Origin: Cristatella mucedo
Taxonomy: Eukaryota > Bryozoa > Phylactolaemata > Cristatellidae
DNA: 64,000 nucleotides
Assembly (NCBI GenBank): GCA_009760855.2
Contig: WPIO01000020.1
Coordinates: 622,001 to 686,000 of the forward strand
Reading direction: 5' to 3'
Below the pieces are notes generated by a model. The model did no database searches and was not told the DNA's origin. It worked only from the letters and a program-made list of their open reading frames with translations. A program made the position numbers and the translations under genes. Shown piece by piece: positions 5,171 to 58,909 of the stretch. The first letter of the stretch is position 1. Each line of letters opens with the position of its first letter.

Positions 5171-5176
5171 TTTATT
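5171..5176 (-). terminator. Polyadenylation signal of peptide gene, P1
   Basis: TTTATT on the plus strand reads AATAAA on the minus strand, about 75 bases after the stop codon of the peptide gene. The same hexamer sits at the matching place in all four P blocks (17720, 47740, 58274). Confidence 0.7.
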
Positions 5177-5250
5177 ATTTTGAATTGTTCGCAATAGTCA
5201 AGTCACAAAGTGACTATGATTAACGAGTGGATTAATTTCGTTGCAAAGAC

Positions 5251-5797
5251 CTAACCCAGTGTTTGAGCAATTTTTAAAAAAGCTGGTCCATACTTCTCAA
5301 GTACTTCTTTTTCCAATGACCGCATTTTTTTCAGCACCGTCTTCAGGGTCCTCTTGGCTTCGTCGTATTCTGAAACGAAGCGACGAAGAAGCCGTGATAA
5401 TCGTGCATGTTGTGCTCTTTCCTTCATATAAATCACAGCGACAGCCCAGTCGGCTGACTGAGCTCTCCGTTTATTTACCTCTGAAAGCGCCCTCCAATTC
5501 CGCTACCAGCTCGGGGCTCAAGTCTGAACTTTCCTCCGAACTCTGCAATCAAGGTGCGTACGTATAGTTTGGGACCCGGTAGCATGCAAAAACCGATATT
5601 CTGTACTCAAAAACTAGCGTAGAGTAATGGCTGCGGCAAACTGTATTGTTGGTGTTCCCAATGCGACCTCTTTCAGGGCCACGCATTGAACGCTCATAGG
5701 CTAAATTAATTTTTAGTGGATCACAAAGGAAACTTACCGAGGCCATCGCCAGGTTAAACAGGAGCACAGCGATAACAGCGACAGTAAGAAACTTCAT
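5251..5797 (-). CDS. Secreted cationic peptide precursor, copy A (intact, 3 coding exons)
   Basis: Coding exons on the minus strand are 5797-5738 (60 nt), 5542-5479 (64 nt) and 5369-5251 (119 nt including TAG). Phases join cleanly to an 80-residue product. Exon 1 is preceded by 'tgtttttcag' and followed by GTAAGT. Exon 2 lies between 'ttgattgcag' and GTAAAT. Exon 3 follows 'cgtttcag'. Exon 1 encodes a signal peptide: MKFL, a hydrophobic core, and an Ala-Met-Ala-Ser end. Exon 2 is acidic and serine-rich. Exon 3 opens with EYDEAKR, a dibasic maturation site, then about 32 residues rich in Lys and Leu (net about +4) with KYGP near the C-terminal third and a terminal Gly that could donate an amide. 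This is the layout of antimicrobial or venom-type prepropeptides. I recognise no named family, and the activity is inference. Confidence 0.8.
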
Positions 5798-6593
5798 TTT
5801 ACCTGAAAAACAGAAGAACGCCCGATAAACGTTTGTCTTTTCACTTACTGAAGAACCAAACTAGGGTTAATATTTCTAATTCATTAAGTATAGCACATTC
5901 TGGTTGCGAATTCAATTGTTTTACTATAATAGCAGTTTTACAACCTAAGGTAGCACTCTGAAACACATATCATACGAGAGAGGCCATTGGCGTCGCTTTA
6001 TCGGAATTCTACCATGTAGCCCAACTCGAGTGAACACTATGTAATACCTTGAAATGCCTTTAGATCGCAGGATTTGAAATCGACCGACGGCGTCCATGCA
6101 AGAAACATAAGAATCATATATTCTCTTTTTAAACGTATTTTCAGGGGATGGAATTATCAGTTTTAATAGACTTCATTTTCTGGACCGGGCGTAGTTGGTA
6201 TTATCAAATTACGAAGAATGCAGCAATACATCAACTTTCCAATGAGGTGCACAGAGAGTTTTCACTTGAATTGTAATAGTAACTAACACTCAGCGATCAG
6301 AAGAGGAATCAAACAGCCATCTTACTGTACTAAGACCGTTACAAGTACAAGGCAGTTGCGATTGTCAAGAACGTTTGTCCGTCAAATCATGCAACAGTAG
6401 CGGTTCGTGACGAAACCGCAAGCTAGGTTAGTCAGAGATTTAATAATTTTTTTCGGCTCTTCCACAAGCTCATACCGGCGTTTGAATACTAAGACGACAT
6501 TCTCGCCTCGCGACCAGGTCTCATGCAGTGTCGGCACAGTGGAAACGTAGACTCTTTAAGGCTTGAAAAAAGTTGCCAACTGCTAATGCTTAC

Positions 6594-6622
6594 CGTTCGG
6601 TAGGATAGGCTGCAGGAGCTGG
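6594..6622 (-). other. Predicted 5' untranslated exon of peptide gene, copy A
   Basis: On the minus strand a segment downstream of a TATA box ends with CGAACG|GTAAGC, a good donor at 6594/6593. The next acceptor is the one before the signal-peptide exon (5803), giving a leader intron of about 790 bases. The 5' limit is estimated from the TATA position. The same arrangement is kept in P3 (donor at 49141/49140). Confidence 0.55.
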
Positions 6623-6646
6623 TGAAATACACCTGGTCCGGTCAAG

Positions 6647-6654
6647 TTTATATA
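6647..6654 (-). promoter_or_regulatory. TATA box, peptide gene copy A
   Basis: TATATAAA on the minus strand, about 25-30 bases before the expected start of the leader exon. P3 has TATATAGA at the same place (49194-49201). The broken copies in P2 and P4 lack this whole region because their blocks end about 290 bases short of it. Confidence 0.6.
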
Positions 6655-7479
6655 GCTTGGCAAATGCTGGTTCCCTATGGGAGCTCCCGGTCACAATAGT
6701 CGGGCGATTAGTCAACTTCTAGGAATGTAACTCTTTTCCAAGTATTTAAAGACGTTTGATTGAAAGGTATTTTTAACTCTGAGTATTTGCTTGATTTGGT
6801 CTCATATCCGTTTGCTGTCTATTTAAGCTAAATACCAAAGAATTCATTGCCTTGGCCGAAAGAAATACCTCCAGTCCTCAGAAGTCTAACAGCCCAGGCT
6901 TGGATACAGAAAAGCACATAATAAACATTTTTTCCAGAATGCACTGGTTGAAGTCGCACCTTACTTTGAGCGTATCGACTTTCAACTTGTTTCACAGCAT
7001 ATCATTTATCGGCCGAAGCTGGTGACGACTTCCTGCATATTGCTGCTTTATTTAGTACCAGGAATATCATTAGCTACTGGACTGGCATCCATCTGTAAAA
7101 ACATAAGTACCACTATTACAGTCTTCGTACTTTCTCTTGGCTGGAGACAGCACCTTTTCGTTAGGCGCGTGACACGAAAGGTAAATGCAACTTGCCTGAA
7201 ACTCAGTGTCGCCTTGTCTAACCATGACAGTACATCTATTGCATACCACCAATTCTTTCTTATAGTCGCATGTACTTATTTGTGCTTAGAACCGTAGCCT
7301 AGCCTAAATATAAAAAATTGGCTTTCAAATCCACGTGAGGCCGACAGACCTTTTTAAAAGCTGCTACTAGCCTACCGGTCTGTCAGGCTTGCTAGTACCG
7401 GTAATTTCTAGCACTAGGCTTACACATACCTATTTCTTTGTCCTTACTCCTTCCAAATTGACTCATCACATACATTTTA

Positions 7480-8050
7480 CTTCCCGCCGACCGGCACTGG
7501 CTGCCATTAAAGCAAAAGATAAACCTCAAGCATTTGTCGCTCACTTTTAGGTCACTTCATTCTTCGGCTGCAGCCTTTATGTCAGATCTGCTTCCCGCCG
7601 GGTCAGGCATCGTACCGCCCGCTTTTCGGAATCCAAAAATATGCCGATACCCCATACAAACCTCAAATCTTTTGGACACCGTGCATGTAGTTCGTGTGCT
7701 CCCAAAGCATGGAACTCACTCTCGACTTCAGTCCCAACATCCACTGACTTTACAACATTTATTAGGAACTTAAAAACACACCTATTTACGACAGCGTTTA
7801 GTGAGTCGTTGTGATACGTCCTTCACGTGCTTATGCGTGCTGACACCATGCGTGCAGCCATTAACCACACTTGCTCGCTGACCCTGTTTACGTTTAACCT
7901 AATGTTATTCATTTTGTTTGTCGAGCGTTATATTACTCCCCATTACATCGTGTTTTTCTTAGCTGCCAACGCAGAGAGCCTAGTAAGAGATTAAGCTCTC
8001 AGAGGGCGAATTATCAAGTGCATTATTATTTTCTTTATAATTATGAATTC
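7480..8050 (+). mobile_element. LINE-A 3' fragment in Q1
   Basis: It begins inside the post-RT region (ccgaccggcactggctgcc, the LHWLP segment). It runs through a decayed C-terminus and 3' UTR to the hairpin ('gagattaagctctcagaggg') and an ATT tail. The R blocks at 19.2 and 59.76 kb show the uninterrupted sequence 'catatatttcaagttc', an empty site. The insertion therefore came after Q and R diverged but before Q1, Q2 and Q4 were copied. Confidence 0.82.
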
Positions 8051-9723
8051 AAGTTCCTCGTGTCAAAACACCAAGCCTTGCTAGTTGTGGTGACTGCTTC
8101 AACAGATTTTCATGCGAGAAGAAACCTACTGAGAGCTTTACAGATTAATCTAGTAATTGCTTGACTACAGTCCTCAGGAAATAGCACGCCTACGGACATC
8201 TATGGGCTAAGAGTTTCTGTACATGATTCCCAAGCTTGACACGGAAGTTGCTTTGCCACCCGTAAATAACTTTTTTTTTTGGTATGCTCCTGCATTCCAC
8301 ATTATTATTGCTCGTGCCTACTACAAACGCTTTAAATAATACAGCTGCTATTCATCCCACCTAGTCTTCCTCAAGCTCTGTTGTGAACCACTTAGTTAGT
8401 GCTAATCGCATTATTATTTATTCCACGCCCGTTGCATCCATTCCTTGAGAGAGCTCACTCAGTTTGCAACGAACCCCGTAGAATCCATGAGTGGAAGGGA
8501 CCTGCTAACTTTAACCATGGTGTGTTTCCACTTATTATTGTGCATCGACAATAACGAAAACTCGGCACATAGTCTTCATAGTTTTGAGCCTCACCGTTAT
8601 GTTATCAAGAATTTTCAATGGCCTTGAAACAGTCTTTTAATGATCTCGTCAACATCCAATGAAACCAACTCAATTGTGTATATAATCAGAGGGTCATTAG
8701 CACTAATTCCTTGCGATTCTCCTAAGTCTTTTACCAAGGTCAACTCTTTGTGTGGCAAATGAGAAGTCGAATCATTATAAGTGATCAAACTTAAGTCCGG
8801 ACAAGTTATCTATCATCTTAAGTGTCGAAGAACGAGCAGGTAGTTACTCGGTTGGTTATGTGCCTCATACTATCAACCTTGTTATTACGACGGTCAAGCT
8901 CTCAGTAAATTTTCGTGGCGATTTTAAATGTGGCATTCCCTATTATTATAGAATTCCATTCGGGCACAGGCGTGGCGATTCCAGTTAGCATGCACTGCGA
9001 GCCGTCCTCTATTCCGGTTTTCTTCCATGAACAGGCAGAATGCAAGTCACATTACGGTGATACTGTCCAGTCAAGACTGTCTATGATGACTCGGCTTCTC
9101 AACTCCCCTTGATGCCGATCATCATTATTCAAATAGTACATCACGATACTCGCTGGCAATCTTCGATAGACGAAGTTATCATGAACGATACTTTGAATGC
9201 TGAGAGATACGGCCAATGGTTTACCCGAGATACTCGACCAGCTAGTCCTACTGATAGCAAGCCTGAGAAAGGTCACGATAAATCATGATTCATCGTCCAT
9301 CGTAAGACTTTCAGTGAGAACTGCAGAATAAACCAAACGATCGATGCAAACTGGAGGCCAAACCTGTGCACACCTGTTGTGTCCTTGCCGACCAAAGATC
9401 GGAAAACTTTACTGGCTACAGTCAGCTATCTAGTTGACCGCTCAGATGCTACATCCTCATCACGTGATCCTTGTGGATATCGAGCTTATCGCTGATGTAT
9501 CTTCTTTGCCAGAAAGCCGGACAAAAGTTCAGTGTCGGTCCGAAAAGTAGCATGTCGCACTGGCGACTCTCATCTCTCAAACTCGATCCAGCAGGATGTG
9601 TCTGTGCTCAATTCCGAACAGCACGTCGACACTAAGGTTTCAGGAAGCCGCGAGTGACCACATACTTATTTGTATTTCCCGGTCAGTCGACGAGGAACAC
9701 CAATCTCTTCGAAGAATAAGTCC

Positions 9724-9905
9724 TTATGGAATGCATTCTTGCATAGAGTGGTGGGCCTGTGAGTGGCAGGAAATGTCGAAGCGGCCGCATTCCTAACAAC
9801 CTGAAGCCCGGAGTACTCTATAGTTTGCATCGTTCTTGTAAACCATGTCCACACAAAATCTGTCGGATGACGTTACATCAGGCTCATACATTTTCATAGT
9901 GCTGA
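9724..9905 (-). pseudogene. Q-block minus-strand frame, broken copy in Q1
   Basis: This is the counterpart of the Q4 frame ending at 52995. MKMYEPD and DRFCVDMVYKN are readable, but TAG replaces a Lys codon after ASGC, and a TGA lies upstream where Q4 has Trp. The terminal ECIP-stop is kept. It is either a decayed gene or non-coding; the Q4 entry discusses it. Confidence 0.3.
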
Positions 9906-10683
9906 GGCTAATGCCGTTCCACATAATAACTTTTCTCCTAGACAGTACGCTACGGACTCAGGTATTCTTGGAACTCCTTACAGACCAGAATGCTAAAAAT
10001 TGTTTCGAAGTCTCTAATTTTAAAAATAGCACGACTCTTGACTTAAAGACGGTCGGAGAAAAATGCATGTTCATGCGGGAACTGTTTCCAGGTAGGCCAC
10101 TCTTGGGCGCCTAACAATGCGTGAGCGAAAATGCGAACATGGTTTGATTCGAAAGGTCGAGAATCCTAGATCGGATCGTGAGTGGACCTAACATTCTCCC
10201 CCACGATTATTCAAAGTTTCTTGAAATGAACGTGAGATGATGTTTAAACCTATCACTGTGGAAGAGCAACTCATTATGGAAAGAAAGTAATTACCCTTCA
10301 AAGACGCCTGCTTAATCTCAGAGTTACCTGCGAATTTCACTTGATTAAAGTAAGCAGATATACTGATAATCTTTCACCAAAGCGCACAAGCTGATATACA
10401 ACTATACGGTTGTTGTACAGAAGGATCAGCCAATAGCCACCTAACGACGTTTGAGCGCATGAAATTAGTTTCCTTTAAACTGCTCGTGTCAAAACTAGGC
10501 GACATTCTTATACGTAGAACGTGCTCTTGGGGAATTACTACTACTAGGGTGAAACATTGTCAACCCTTTGTTGTTAATGTAGAGCTTGGTTACATATACT
10601 GCTAGTCAACCTCAGTCGTTTAGCGAGCTGTGCAGTAATGTAGGTGCTGCTGCGGTTGACCATGGAACTCTGTGCAATTCCTT

Positions 10684-12574: not shown

Positions 12575-15500
12575 TGCTGCTTTATTTAGTACCAGGAATA
12601 TCATTAGCTACTGGACTGGCATCCATCTGTAAAAACATAAGTACCACTATTACAGTCTTCGTACTTTCTCTTGGCTGGAGACAGCACCTTTTCGTTAGGC
12701 GCGTGACACGAAAGGTAAATGCAACTTGCCTGAAACTCAGTGTCGCCTTGTCTAACCATGACAGTACATCTATTGCATACCACCAATTCTTTCTTATAGT
12801 CGCATGTACTTATTTGTGCTTAGAACCGTAGCCTAGCCTAAATATAAAAAATTGGCTTTCAAATCCACGTGAGGCCGACAGACCTTTTTAAAAGCTGCTA
12901 CTAGCCTACCGGTCTGTCAGGCTTGCTAGTACCGGTAATTTCTAGCACTAGGCTTACACATACCTATTTCTTTGTCCTTACTCCTTCCAAATTGACTCAT
13001 CACATACATTTTACTTCCCGCCGACCGGCACTGGCTGCCATTAATTAAAAAAAAAGAAAAAACCTCAAGCATTTGTCGCTCACTTTTAGGTCACTTCATT
13101 CTTCGGCTGCAGCCTTTATGTCAGATCTGCTTCCCGCCGGGTCAGGCATCGTACCGCCCGCTTTTCGGAATCCAAAAATATGCCGATACCCCATACAAAC
13201 CTCAAATCTTTTGGACACCGTGCATGTAGTTCGTGTGCTCCCAAAGCATGGAACTCACTCTCGACTTCAGTCCCAACATCCACTGACTTTACAACATTTA
13301 TTAGGAACTTAAAAACACACCTATTTACGACAGCGTTTAGTGAGTCGTTGTGATACGTCCTTCACGTGCTTATGCGTGCTGACACCATGCGTGCAGCCAT
13401 TAACCACACTTGCTCGCTGACCCTGTTTACGTTTAACCTAATGTTATTCATTTTGTTTGTCGAGCGTTATATTACTCCCCATTACATCGTGTTTTTCTTA
13501 GCTGCCAACGCAGAGAGCCTAGTAAGAGATTAAGCTCTCAGAGGGCGAATTATCAAGTGCATTATTATTTTCTTTATAATTATGAATTCAAGTTCCTCGT
13601 GTCAAAACACCAAGCCTTGCTAGTTGTGGTGACTGCTTCAACAGATTTTCATGCGAGAAGAAACCTACTGAGAGCTTTACAGATTAATCTAGTAATTGCT
13701 TGACTACAGTCCTCAGGAAATAGCACGCCTACGGACATCTATGGGCTAAGAGTTTCTGTACATGATTCCCAAGCTTGACACGGAAGTTGCTTTGCCACCC
13801 GTAAATACCTTTTTTTTTGGTATGCTCCTGCATTCCACATTATTATTGCTCGTGCCTACTACAAACGCTTTAAATAATACAGCTGCTATTCATCCCACCT
13901 AGTCTTCCTCAAGCTCTGTTGTGAACCACTTAGTTAGTGCTAATCGCATTATTATTTATTCCACGCCCGTTGCATCCATTCCTTGAGAGAGCTCACTCAG
14001 TTTGCAACGAACCCCGTAGAATCCATGAGTGGAAGGGACCTGCTAACTTTAACCATGGTGTGTTTCCACTTATTATTGTGCATCGACAATAACGAAAACT
14101 CGGCACATAGTCTTCATAGTTTTGAGCCTCACCGTTATGTTATCAAGAATTTTCAATGGCCTTGAAACAGTCTTTTAATGATCTCGTCAACATCCAATGA
14201 AACCAACTCAATTGTGTATATAATCAGAGGGTCATTAGCACTAATTCCTTGCGATTCTCCTAAGTCTTTTACCAAGGTCAACTCTTTGTGTGGCAAATGA
14301 GAAGTCGAATCATTATAAGTGATCAAACTTAAGTCCGGACAAGTTATCTATCATCTTAAGTGTCGAAGAACGAGCAGGTAGTTACTCGGTTGGTTATGTG
14401 CCTCATACTATCAACCTTGTTATTACGACGGTCAAGCTCTCAGTAAATTTTCGTGGCGATTTTAAATGTGGCATTCCCTATTATTATAGAATTCCATTCG
14501 GGCACAGGCGTGGCGATTCCAGTTAGCATGCACTGCGAGCCGTCCTCTATTCCGGTTTTCTTCCATGAACAGGCAGAATGCAAGTCACATTACGGTGATA
14601 CTGTCCAGTCAAGACTGTCTATGATGACTCGGCTTCTCAACTCCCCTTGATGCCGATCATCATTATTCAAATAGTACATCACGATACTCGCTGGCAATCT
14701 TCGATAGACGAAGTTATCATGAACGATACTTTGAATGCTGAGAGATACGGCCAATGGTTTACCCGAGATACTCGACCAGCTAGTCCTACTGATAGCAAGC
14801 CTGAGAAAGGTCACGATAAATCATGATTCATCGTCCATCGTAAGACTTTCAGTGAGAACTGCAGAATAAACCAAACGATCGATGCAAACTGGAGGCCAAA
14901 CCTGTGCACACCTGTTGTGTCCTTGCCGACCAAAGATCGGAAAACTTTACTGGCTACAGTCAGCTATCTAGTTGACCGCTCAGATGCTACATCCTCATCA
15001 CGTGATCCTTGTGGATATCGAGCTTATCGCTGATGTATCTTCTTTGCCAGAAAGCCGGACAAAAGTTCAGTGTCGGTCCGAAAAGTAGCATGTCGCACTG
15101 GCGACTCTCATCTCTCAAACTCGATCCAGCAGGATGTGTCTGTGCTCAATTCCGAACAGCACGTCGACACTAAGGTTTCAGGAAGCCGCGAGTGACCACA
15201 TACTTATTTGTATTTCCCGGTCAGTCGACGAGGAACACCAATCTCTTCGAAGAATAAGTCCTTATGGAATGCATTCTTGCATAGAGTGGTGGGCCTGTGA
15301 GTGGCAGGAAATGTCGAAGCGGCCGCATTCCTAACAACCTGAAGCCCGGAGTACTCTATAGTTTGCATCGTTCTTGTAAACCATGTCCACAAAAAAATCT
15401 GTCGGATGACGTTACATCAGGCTCATACATTTTCATAGTGCTGAGGCTAATGCCGTTCCACATAATAACTTTTCTCCTAGACAGTACGCTACGGACTCAG

Positions 15501-16191
15501 GTATTCTTGGAACTCCTTACAGACCAGAATGCTAAAAATTGTTTCGAAGTCTCTAATTTTAAAAATAGCACGACTCTTGACTTAAAGACGGTCGGAGAAA
15601 AATGCATGTTCATGCGGGAACTGTTTCCAGGTAGGCCACTCTTGGGCGCCTAACAATGCGTGAGCGAAAATGCGAACATGGTTTGATTCGAAAGGTCGAG
15701 AATCCTAGATCGGATCGTGAGTGGACCTAACATTCTCCCCCACGATTATTCAAAGTTTCTTGAAATGAACGTGAGATGATGTTTAAACCTATCACTGTGG
15801 AAGAGCAACTCATTATGGAAAGAAAGTAATTACCCTTCAAAGACGCCTGCTTAATCTCAGAGTTACCTGCGAATTTCACTTGATTAAAGTAAGCAGATAT
15901 ACTGATAATCTTTCACCAAAGCGCACAAGCTGATATACAACTATACGGTTGTTGTACAGAAGGATCAGCCAATAGCCACCTAACGACGTTTGAGCGCATG
16001 AAATTAGTTTCCTTTAAACTGCTCGTGTCAAAACTAGGCGACATTCTTATACGTAGAACGTGCTCTTGGGGAATTACTACTACTAGGGTGAAACATTGTC
16101 AACCCTTTGTTGTTAATGTAGAGCTTGGTTACATATACTGCTAGTCAACCTCAGTCGTTTAGCGAGCTGTGCAGTAATGTAGGTGCTGCTG
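12575..16191. repeat. Q block, copy 2 (near-identical to Q copy 1)
   Basis: Same content as 7041-10652, offset by 5534-5539 bases. The offset changes only at short A/T tracts. Identity begins at 'tgctgctttattta' and ends at 'aggtgctgctg', after which Q2 continues directly into the middle of a P block. The right junction shows short 'gctg' homology between the two partners. The broken minus-strand frame seen in Q1 is present here too (about 15262-15440). Confidence 0.9.
13014..13589 (+). mobile_element. LINE-A 3' fragment in Q2
   Basis: The same insertion as at 7480-8050, carried along by the Q duplication. The only notable difference is an A-rich tract of extra bases near 13046. Confidence 0.82.
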
Positions 16192-17822: not shown

Positions 17823-18347
17823 TTAAAGCAGTTGGTCCATACTTCTTAAGTAGATTTTTCCCACTGAGAGCACGTTTTCCAGCGCCGTCCTCAGGCCCCT
17901 CTTGGCTTCGTCGTATTCTGAAACGAAGTGACGAAGAAGCCGTGATAATCGTGCATCATGTTGAGCTCATGACTTCATATAAATGACAGCGACAGCACGG
18001 TCAGCTGGCTCTGCTCTCCGTTTAGTCACCTCTGAAAGCGCCCTCCAATTCCACTATCAGCTCAGGACTCAAGTCAGAATTTTCCTCCGAACTCTGGAAT
18101 CAAGGTGCGTTTTATAGTTTGTGACCATGCTGCATGCAAAAACCGAGATTCTGTACTCATAAACTAGCGTAGAGTAATGGCTGCGGCAAACTGTATTGTT
18201 GGTGTTCCCATTACGACCTCTTTCAGGGCCACGCATTGAACGCTCATAGGCTGAATTAAGTTTTAGTGGATCACAAAGGAAACTTACCGAGGCCATCGCC
18301 AGGTTAAACAGGAGCACAGCGATCGCAGCAACAGTAAGAAACTTCAT
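17823..18347 (-). pseudogene. Secreted peptide precursor, copy B (frameshifted)
   Basis: Exon 1 (18347-18288) and exon 2 (18093-18030) are intact with acceptors and donors (GTAAGT; GTGACT, weaker). Exon 3 starts at 17917 after 'tttcag' and keeps the EYDEAKR cleavage segment. A one-base deletion about 60 bases into exon 3 shifts the frame and ends it early at TAA (17825-17823). The family's usual stop would be at 17800-17802. The P block ends at 18907, so the TATA box and leader exon are gone. It is probably a pseudogene, although a shorter product from another promoter cannot be excluded. Confidence 0.75.
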
Positions 18348-47739: not shown

Positions 47740-47745
47740 TTTATT
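47740..47745 (-). terminator. Polyadenylation signal of peptide gene, P3
   Basis: AATAAA on the minus strand, about 75 bases past the stop codon of copy C, at the position conserved in all P blocks. Confidence 0.7.
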
Positions 47746-47819: not shown

Positions 47820-48345
47820 CTAACCTAGTACTTTTGCAATTTTGAGAGCAGTTGGTCCATACTTGATAGCTAGCTGTTTCACCTTCGACCACAGGCCCCT
47901 CTTGGCTTCGTCGTATTCTGAAACGAAGCGACGAAGAAGCCGTGATAATCGTGCATGTTGTGCTCTTTACTTCATATAAATCACAGCGACAGCCCAGTCG
48001 GCTGACTGAGCTCTCCGTTTATTTACCTCTGAAAGCGCCCTCCAATTCCGCTACCAGCTCGGGGCTCAAGTCTGAACTTTCCTCCGAACTCTGCAATCAA
48101 GGTGCGTACGTATAGTTTGGGACCCGGTAGCATGCAAAAACCGAGATTCTGTACTCAAAAACTAGCGTAGAGTAATGGCTGCGGCAAACTGTATTGTTGG
48201 TGTTCCCAATGCGACCTCTTTCAGGGCCACGCATTGAACGCTCATAGGCTGAATTAAGTTTTAGTGGATCACAAAGGAAACTTACCGAGGCCATCGCCAG
48301 GTTAAACAGGAGCACAGCGATAACAGCGACAGTAAGAAACTTCAT
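47820..48345 (-). CDS. Secreted cationic peptide precursor, copy C (intact, divergent mature peptide)
   Basis: Coding exons on the minus strand are 48345-48286, 48090-48027 and 47917-47820, giving 73 residues. Splice signals match copy A (ag before exon 1, GTAAGT, 'gattgcag', GTAAAT, 'tttcag'). The signal peptide and acidic propiece are essentially unchanged from copy A. After the EAKR cleavage segment the mature part is very different. It is about 25 residues instead of 32, starts Gly-Leu-Trp, has five Lys and no acidic residue, and keeps KYGP and the final Gly before TAG. The length change is exactly seven codons, so the frame is maintained. A conserved precursor with a changing mature peptide is typical of host-defence and venom peptides. 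The Gly-Leu-Trp-Ser start recalls some frog dermaseptins, which I read as convergence, not homology. Confidence 0.82.
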
Positions 48346-49193: not shown

Positions 49194-49201
49194 TCTATAT
49201 A
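49194..49201 (-). promoter_or_regulatory. TATA-like box, peptide gene copy C
   Basis: TATATAGA on the minus strand, one base different from the TATATAAA of copy A, with the same spacing to the leader donor. Confidence 0.5.
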
Positions 49202-54020: not shown

Positions 54021-55981
54021 TAATAATAATGTACTAATAATAATTCACATGATAAAGCGCCCTCAGAGAACTCAATCTCTCTCTAGGTGCTTTACATTTG
54101 CTGCAAAGGGAAATGCAATTGAATGGTGAGTAATATTATGCTTGATAAACAAGAAAAATCACTAACATGGTTAGGGGTGACATGCACGGGGTCTCGTGCA
54201 AATGCGGTTAGTGGCAGCATGCACAGTGTCAGCACGCATAAGCAGATCAAGGACGAATCACAGGAACCCATTAAATGCTGTCCTAAATACGTGTGTTTTT
54301 AAGTTCTTTTTAAATGCGGTCAGGTCAGGGATGGTTCTGACGCAGGTCGGGAGGGATTTCCAGGCTTTGGGAGCGTACGAACTAAATGCACGGTCTCCAA
54401 AGGATTTGAGGTTTCTAGGAGGTATTGGTAGACTGTTGGATTCCGAAAAGCGGGTGGTCGATGCTTGGCCTGATGGCGGAGTATATCTGAGAGATAGGCT
54501 GGAGCCAAAGAAGGAAGTGACCTAAAAGTGAGCGACGAAACCTTGAAATCAATCAGCTGCTTGACTGGTAGCCAGTGCAGGTCGGCGAGAAGTGGAGTAA
54601 CGTGGCAACTGCGACGCTCACGACAGACAAGTCTAGCTGCAGAGTTTTACACCAGCTGCAATCGTCTGATCGCACATACTGGTAAGCCAGTGAGCAGTGA
54701 GTTGCAGAAGTCGAGACGGATGTCACGAATGCATTTGCAAATTTGGACGTGGTATCCTCATCTAAACGAGCCCGAATTTGAGCAATGTTATGAAGCTGAA
54801 AATAGACAGAGTTGACTTTGGAGCTGATATGGTCGTCTAAGTAGAGGTCGCTTTGGAATATGACACCTAGATTTCGAGCCGATTCAACTGGAAATATGGT
54901 GGAAGGGCCCATTTTGAGCGTCAGTCTTTCCAATTTGTGAATCACATTAGGTTGTCCCATAACTAGTAAGTGAGTTTTATCATCGTTTAGTTTTAGAAAA
55001 TTTGCTGCCATCCATGTGCGGATGTCATTGATACATGCAGCAAGTGAGTTGAGAGAAATTGAGGTGCTCGAAGGCAAAGAGGGATAAAAGCGACGGTACG
55101 ACTGAGTGTCATCCCCATAGAAATGAGAGCCTTGATTGTGCTTGGCAATCACATCAGCAAAAGGGAGAGTATAAACCGTGAAAGGAGCCGGACCTAGCAA
55201 GGAGCCCTGTGGTGCCCCATTATTCAGAGGTACCTCAGACGATCTTTGTCCGTTGACGTCAATGCTCTGGACTCTCTTACTGAGATAAGACCGGAACCAC
55301 TGCAGAGCAGTGCCAGTGATGCCCGGGAGAGGCGCTCTAGAAGAACTTTGTGATCGATGGTATCAAAGCTGCCGAAAGATCGAGCGAAACAAGCAGAGAC
55401 GCTCTACCCATGACTGCATTCAGGGTAAAAGGGAAACTGGGCGGTAGCTGCTTAAGTTCTCTCGGTCTAGTGTCGCTTTCTTGAGAAGCGGCCTGACTAC
55501 AGCTTTTTTGAAAGGTGCTGGGACATGATCCGAGGCTAATGACATACTAATAATGTTAGTTATGCATGGCAGCAGCAGATCAATGTAACGTTGGATCAGG
55601 ACAGTGTTAACAGGGTCGATAGGACTTGTATTCTTCTTTTATTGAGATACGACCTTCAGGACTAGATCATTAGTGACCTGCTTAAATGTAGACATTGAGG
55701 TGTAGCCAGGAATCGGGTAACAGCATTCTAGTGGAGAGGTTGTTATCGCAGGGATAGATTCCCTGATCTTGCCTATACTCTGCACAAAGAATCGAGAGAA
55801 GTGATCGGCTAGATCATCACATGGATCACCAGGTAAGGCACCAATCTGGGAGCAGTTGAGGAGATGGTTGATCGTCGACATCAGCATTTATGGATCGTGC
55901 ATCCGTGACTTAACAATGTTTCTATACAAGCTAGACTTGGCCTTTGCTAGGATCGATTAATACGACCTACAGTAGTAATAA
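54021..55981 (-). mobile_element. LINE-A 5'-truncated copy with clean flanks
   Basis: The ATT tail and hairpin lie at 54021-54090. Post-RT and RT remnants run minus-strand (55200-54553: DVIAKHNQGSHFYGDDTQSY, NDDKTHLLVMGQP; pre-RT 55887-55639: GDPCDDLADHFSRFFVQ). It is truncated at 'gacctacagtagtaata'. TCCTT flanks it (left in 'aattcctt', right 'tccttgaaag'), and the uninterrupted site is at 45.47 kb. 'FYGDDTQ' keeps the two catalytic Asp, but the frames are broken elsewhere. Confidence 0.87.
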
Positions 55982-58349: not shown

Positions 58350-58909
58350 GGACAAAAGAAGTCCTTCAATAACTTTTAAAAGTGTTGGTCCATACTTGAA
58401 AGCTCGATCAGCTCCCGTTGAGTCCACCTTTGCAACGTCGAAATCAGGCCTCTCTTGGCTTCGTCGTATTCTGAAACGAAGTGAGTAAGCAGCCGTGATA
58501 ATCATGCATGTTGTGCTCAAGACTCACTATAAATCACAGCTACAGCCTGGTCAGCTGGCACTGCTCTCCGGTTAGGTACCTCTGAAAGCGTCCTCCACTT
58601 CAGCTATCAGCGTGGCTCGTGGCTCAAGTCAGAATTTTCCGCCAAATTCTGCAATAAAGCTGCATTGGTATTGTCTTTGACCATGTTGCATACAGAAACC
58701 CAGATTCTTCGCGGAAAATCTAGCATGGAAGAATTGCTAATGCAATCTGTATTGTTGTTGCTTACAATATGAACTCTTTCAGGGCCACGCATTGAAAGTT
58801 CGTAGGCCTAATTCATTTCTAGTGGATGATAAATAAAACTTGCCGATGACGTCACTAGGTCAAACAGGAGCACACCGAAAACAACGATAGTAAGAAACTT
58901 AATTTGTAC
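58350..58909 (-). pseudogene. Secreted peptide precursor, copy D (decayed)
   Basis: The recognisable exon positions are 58909-58844, 58648-58580 and from 58470 downward. The start ATG is changed to ATT (58903-58901), and the exon 1 donor is GCAAGT instead of GTAAGT. Exon 2 is 69 instead of 64 nt and runs into a TGA. Exon 3 keeps the EYDEAKR segment but is frameshifted afterwards; the KYGP segment is readable only in another frame. An AATAAA signal survives at 58274-58279 (minus). Promoter and leader exon are missing beyond 59463. It is a pseudogene and the most diverged copy. Confidence 0.8.

Follow-up and report, generated by a model that had tools for sequence, protein, structure and literature searches.

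A small duplicated gene family of Cristatella mucedo that may encode secreted antimicrobial-type peptides with a conserved leader and a divergent tail

The stretch of Cristatella mucedo DNA analysed here (the window, 64,000 nucleotides, C122:622001-686000) contains four copies of a repeat unit, each with the same minus-strand gene, and the question that this locus raises is whether these genes specify secreted peptides, and of which kind, or are relics carried along by a repeat. Based on the gene structures, the predicted products and searches of the genome (572 Mb, 688 contigs), we propose, with a probability of about 0.6, that they constitute a small, duplicated and apparently lineage-restricted family for secreted linear antimicrobial-type (host-defence) peptides.

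In copy A, the three splice-flanked coding exons that a preliminary description had placed there were confirmed at the same positions: they measure 60, 64 and 119 nt, join in phase to 80 codons followed by TAG, and are bounded by TCG/GTAAGT, TTGCAG/AGT, GAG/GTAAAT and TTTCAG/AAT. The TATA box and the AATAAA of the same description were likewise borne out by direct reading, which also gave the leader donor, and copy A comprises the following features.

6654-6647, minus strand: TATA box TATATAAA, by direct reading, in a block common to copies C, F568 and E559
6594..6625, minus strand: predicted non-coding leader exon, its 3′ end given by the donor GTAAGC and its 5′ end inferred from the TATA spacing
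5738..5802, minus strand: exon 1, with 5 nt of 5′UTR and then the CDS (5797-5738) for the leader MKFLTVAVIAVLLFNLAMAS
5479..5542, minus strand: exon 2, acidic propiece SSEESSDLSPELVAELEGAFR
5251..5369, minus strand: exon 3, with EYDEAKR (to 5350), the mature peptide TLKTVLKKMRSLEKEVLEKYGPAFLKIAQTLG (5349-5254) and the stop
5171..5176, minus strand: AATAAA, by direct reading

The leader donor reads ACG/GTAAGC at 6594/6593, by hand count on the sequence, and the coding span (window 5797-5251, minus strand) gives an intact spliced precursor of 80 aa.

The preliminary description had also spoken of a multi-copy family, and this holds for the four copies in the window (near 5.5, 18, 48 and 58.6 kb), but only A and C are intact there. 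Copy C has its coding span at 48345-47820 on the minus strand and gives an intact spliced precursor of 73 aa; its features and those of copies B and D are as follows.

49194..49201, minus strand: TATA-like TATATAGA of copy C at the position that corresponds to the TATA box of A, with the same leader and donor after it, by direct reading
48286..48345, minus strand: exon 1 of copy C, identical to A
48027..48090, minus strand: exon 2 of copy C, identical to A
47820..47917, minus strand: exon 3 of copy C, with EYDEAKR, the mature peptide GLWSKVKQLAIKYGPTALKIAKVLG and the stop
47740..47745, minus strand: AATAAA of copy C, by direct reading
17823..18347, minus strand: copy B, which retains leader and propiece, has a shifted frame in exon 3 when compared with A, and lacks the promoter block
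58359..58903, minus strand: copy D, broken in start, donor 1, exon 2 frame and stop, and without the promoter block

Genome-wide, 11 matches were found, seven of them clustered within C122:559-681 kb (E559, F568, G574, A627, B640, C670 and D680), while the weaker ones, at C122:1457 kb and at three places on C42, are relic-like in the stretches read. A genome search with the product of C returned three matches, all within A and C, a search in which the shortness of the exons means that relatives may be missed. F568 (copy F), which lies to the left of the window at a distance of about 54 kb, is a third intact gene in start, splice sites and frame, also with TATA box and AATAAA, and its 80-aa precursor consists of MKSATIAVFAVLLFNMVMSS, SLEETFDLSPELIAEVESAFR, EYNEAKK and AVALKPIKMIVPGVGPGLSLGSGMFKPIGRLV in that order, with KK in place of KR and without a terminal Gly. 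In copy B, exon 3 is shifted by one base against the frame of A and, taken as read, encodes a different tail of 24 residues before it ends; copy D has an ATT start, a GC donor 1 and five additional bases in exon 2, and lacks a stop where the family has one; E559 and G574 are broken as well. The block of promoter and leader exists in A, C, F and E559, four of the seven copies in the cluster, and in E559 both the TATA box and the leader donor are altered, so that three of the seven (A, C and F) combine TATA box, leader donor, splice sites and frame, and the other four do not.

At the site of the promoter block, copies B (18.93-19.4 kb) and D (59.49-60.0 kb) have the same foreign sequence, unlike A, with 58 of 533 sites differing between them, and because they share it the block was probably lost once, before B and D separated. 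Within intron 0, however, copy B is nearer to A (33 of 549 sites differ) than to D (101 of 549). Since it is D-like upstream but A-like within intron 0, copy B is, judged by these distances, a mosaic of a D-like upstream region and an A/C-like gene body.

In A and C, the precursor runs in the order hydrophobic leader, acidic propiece, EAKR, cationic amphipathic peptide and terminal Gly. This is the product that had been described beforehand, and it stands for these two copies, but not in full for the intact copy F with its EAKK and its different C-terminus. The leader, with 20 residues, a mean Kyte-Doolittle value of 2.0 and a charge of +1, has the composition of a hydrophobic N-terminal signal. 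The propiece is charged -6 in A and -5 in F, and the mature part +4 in A, +5 in C and +4 in F. The hydrophobic moment of the mature part is 0.39 in A (shuffle p 0.012), 0.38 in C (p 0.025) and 0.43 in F (reached in 0 of 5,000 shuffles), and that of the propiece is similar (0.34, p 0.03), so that the measure is not specific; the amphipathicity of the mature A and C peptides is modest. Single-sequence AlphaFold2 models of the exon 3 products show one continuous helix (pLDDT 86.8 for C and 96.6 for A), with no kink at Gly-Pro. The mature parts are therefore cationic (+4 to +5) and amphipathic (moment 0.38-0.43), with a predicted helix in A and C.

The copies do not diverge evenly along the gene. 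Between A and C, exons 1 and 2 are identical (0 of 60 and 0 of 64 sites, together 0 of 124), and introns 1 and 2 differ at 3 of 195 and 1 of 109 sites (together 4 of 304). The part for EYDEAKR differs at 1 of 21 sites, the single difference being the first mature base, as the cut was set one base inside the mature part. The mature part, counted with the stop, differs at 25 of 77 sites plus a 21-nt gap (26 of 77 in a second alignment). Beyond it, 9 of 91 sites differ in the 3′UTR and 54 of 330 downstream, and upstream 27 of 551 in the part of intron 0 compared. The same peak appears between A and B (mature part 32 of 97 versus 3′UTR 11 of 91) and between B and C (26 of 77 versus 14 of 91). The excess of the mature part over the introns has Fisher values of 1.6e-15 (A-C), 1.1e-7 (A-B) and 5.7e-8 (B-C), and over the 3′UTR of 4e-4, 8e-4 and 6e-3, respectively. 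Between A and F, 22 of 124 sites differ in exons 1-2, 81 of 304 in introns 1-2, and 13 of 63 plus a 28-nt gap in the 3′UTR; the mature part differs at 57 of 98, yet in both copies it has 32 residues and a charge of +4. The introns provide a yardstick of neutral change, which studies of frog or mussel peptides based on cDNA do not have.

For the leader and propiece of A and F, dN is 0.17 and dS 0.24. For the mature part of A and C, dN is 0.48 and dS 0.42 over 25 codons (dN/dS about 1.2), and with dS raised alongside dN the pattern is, on these values, no demonstration of selection for amino-acid change; such selection as the whole cause of the tail divergence was rejected on the same ground. 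A single conversion boundary was also rejected, as identity recovers past the stop and A-B and B-C have the same peak. Between A and C, exons 1-2 and introns 1-2 are closer than the regions around them. As the dS of the tail is raised too, gene conversion of the leader half, together with exchange or local hypermutation of the tail, likely contributes.

These properties outline how such a peptide could work. The leader would send the precursor to the secretory path, where the acidic propiece could mask the cationic tail by charge. A furin- or convertase-type enzyme may cut after EAKR, or after EAKK in F, the terminal Gly of A and C would become an amide, and the released helix, with 24 residues in C, 31 in A and 32 in F, could insert into the membranes of microbes. 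Each gene would then come to have a different peptide, through duplication, recombination between the copies and rapid change of the tail. A kept leader with a fast tail is the pattern seen in defence or weapon peptides and the opposite of that seen in hormones.

The preliminary description had suggested a defence or venom family. The third intact copy, the promoter and splice sites kept together in the intact copies only, and the divergence concentrated in the mature part agree with it, but the two uses are inseparable here. Venom peptide families too combine a conserved leader with a fast-changing mature part, and the charge and helix features would be the same if this type of molecule served as venom or as an offensive cytolytic secretion instead of host defence. 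That use is, in our estimate, distinctly the less probable one: nothing in the sequence data points to a venom gland, and we favour defence, although sequence cannot tell the uses apart.

Rather improbable is that the family is one of repeat-borne pseudogenes, decaying or never expressed, whose open frames in A, C and F are due to chance. Four of the seven clustered copies are indeed broken, shifted or promoterless, and the four further matches look like relics, but A, C and F jointly retain TATA box, leader donor, splice sites and frame. When copies were simulated under neutrality at the intron distance of A and F, 1.6% of 20,000 kept the ATG and a frame that ran to the same stop, and 0.06% of 20,000 did so when eight kept splice bases and the absence of an indel were added as conditions. 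As the simulation is crude (Jukes-Cantor, one lineage, indel rate set by eye), these values hold as an order of magnitude only, and to that order the intact gene structure would exceed chance expectation. A precursor of a neuropeptide or peptide hormone, yielding a single amidated peptide behind a dibasic site, would suit the KR site and terminal Gly of A and C, but it is very unlikely, since the released part is the most variable and the spacer conserved, where a hormone should show the opposite, and F has no terminal Gly.

As to known relatives of the proposed defence peptides, the preliminary description had assigned the product to no named family, and the searches agree: no match rose above cut-off in Pfam (A, C and F) or NCBIfam (A and C), those of A all lying below the cut-offs and C and F (F in Pfam only) having none. 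A PDB search with precursor A found no homologue, the best match being a calcium-binding protein (E 0.27), and the longer peptide strings of the family were not found in the open-licence literature. The KYGPT string was found there, with SMAP-29 among its sources. A PDB search with mature C returned two sequences, the designed repeat 8vd6 (total E 0.0004, from weak repeated stretches) and SMAP-29 (E 0.4), a sheep cathelicidin peptide (PDB 1FRY), to which mature C is identical at 10 of 24 positions, with KYGPT equally far from the terminal Gly. In a comparison made after the fact, the score against SMAP-29 was reached by 0 of 20,000 shuffles for C, 3 of 20,000 for A and 19,009 of 20,000 for F, and copy F has no likeness to it.

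The cathelin domain of cathelicidins has four Cys in about 100 residues, whereas the precursors of A, C and F have 80, 73 and 80 aa, no Cys and no Pfam match above cut-off. Because mature C is SMAP-29-like but its precursor is not that of a cathelicidin, the likeness probably reflects convergence. A tail that had arrived at a SMAP-29-like form independently would help to identify the features that recur in the evolution of membrane-active peptides. Between A and C, change climbs just past the EAKR codons, at synonymous sites as well, and drops after the stop, with leader and introns near-identical. A speculative reading, which we consider doubtful, is that the mature segment acts as a cassette, the copies trading or remaking tails behind a fixed leader, and that one tail came by convergence to the KYGPT hinge and Gly end of a mammalian cathelicidin peptide.

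Other families resemble this one in layout. The arminins of Hydra, a taxon-restricted family, have acidic N-terminal and cationic C-terminal parts, and the acidic-then-cationic layout found here is like theirs by description. The precursors of frog-skin antimicrobial peptides are cut at KR, and their products are frequently amidated. In the excerpted account of these precursors (dermaseptin, brevinin, temporin and others), they consist of signal, acidic propiece and cationic mature part, have grown by duplication, and show positive selection in only a few families (PMC7073735). The genes described here share this order of parts, a likeness by description with no Pfam match above cut-off. Myticalins, linear antimicrobial peptides of mussels, have, in the excerpt of their description, conserved precursor ends around a hypervariable cationic mature part, a 5′UTR intron just before the ATG and pseudogenes beside working genes, with a single exon for signal and mature peptide and an anionic propiece at the C-terminus (PMC5577615). 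As far as that excerpt goes, the present family is alike in the logic of conserved ends, the predicted 5′UTR intron before the ATG and the pseudogenes beside intact genes, but it differs in having the propiece first and leader, propiece and mature part on separate exons, and so does not have the arrangement of a myticalin. A working mode like that of frog-skin peptides or mussel myticalins is the likeliest. If expressed, the genes would form a family of animal peptides that is apparently undescribed, and genomic DNA shows in it where the fixed leader gives way to the changing tail.

Around the genes, Rfam and tRNA scans of the window and a search of a phage collection gave nothing. A recent direct duplication of about 3.6 kb lies at window 7041-10652 and 12575-16191 (99.7% identical, spaced 5.5 kb), with diverged copies near 50-53.8 kb. 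A reverse-transcriptase fragment (Pfam RVT_1, E 6e-9) lies at 54556-55362 on the minus strand, and LINE-like fragments similar to it were seen elsewhere in the window from repeat matches and by eye. Outside the window, C122:749118-749777 holds an open frame with an alanine-aminotransferase-like stretch, by eye.

The contig C688 (21,008 bp) is mitochondrial, with cytochrome b found by search and 12S, 16S, ND5, ATP6 and COX3 by eye. Codons read by eye have AGA and AGG at expected serine sites and TGA as Trp; AAA was not seen in the coding codons read, and the one AAA lies past a stop. ND5, cytochrome b, ATP6 and COX3 lie on one strand and the rRNAs on the other, and opposite the rRNAs run cox3-trnK(UUU)-trnA-trnN and then ATP6. 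An acorn-worm affinity, considered for the missing AAA (PMC3121625), was rejected, since trnK is UUU and cox3-K-A-N is similar to a molluscan block; taken by itself, the contig would tentatively suggest a mollusc or a different lophotrochozoan. The order cox3-K-A-R-N-I is given as an ancestral molluscan block in the excerpt of PMC11488289, and the cox3-K-A-N of C688 resembles it, whereas the monoplacophoran mitochondrial order, in the excerpt of PMC5162086, differs from that of C688.
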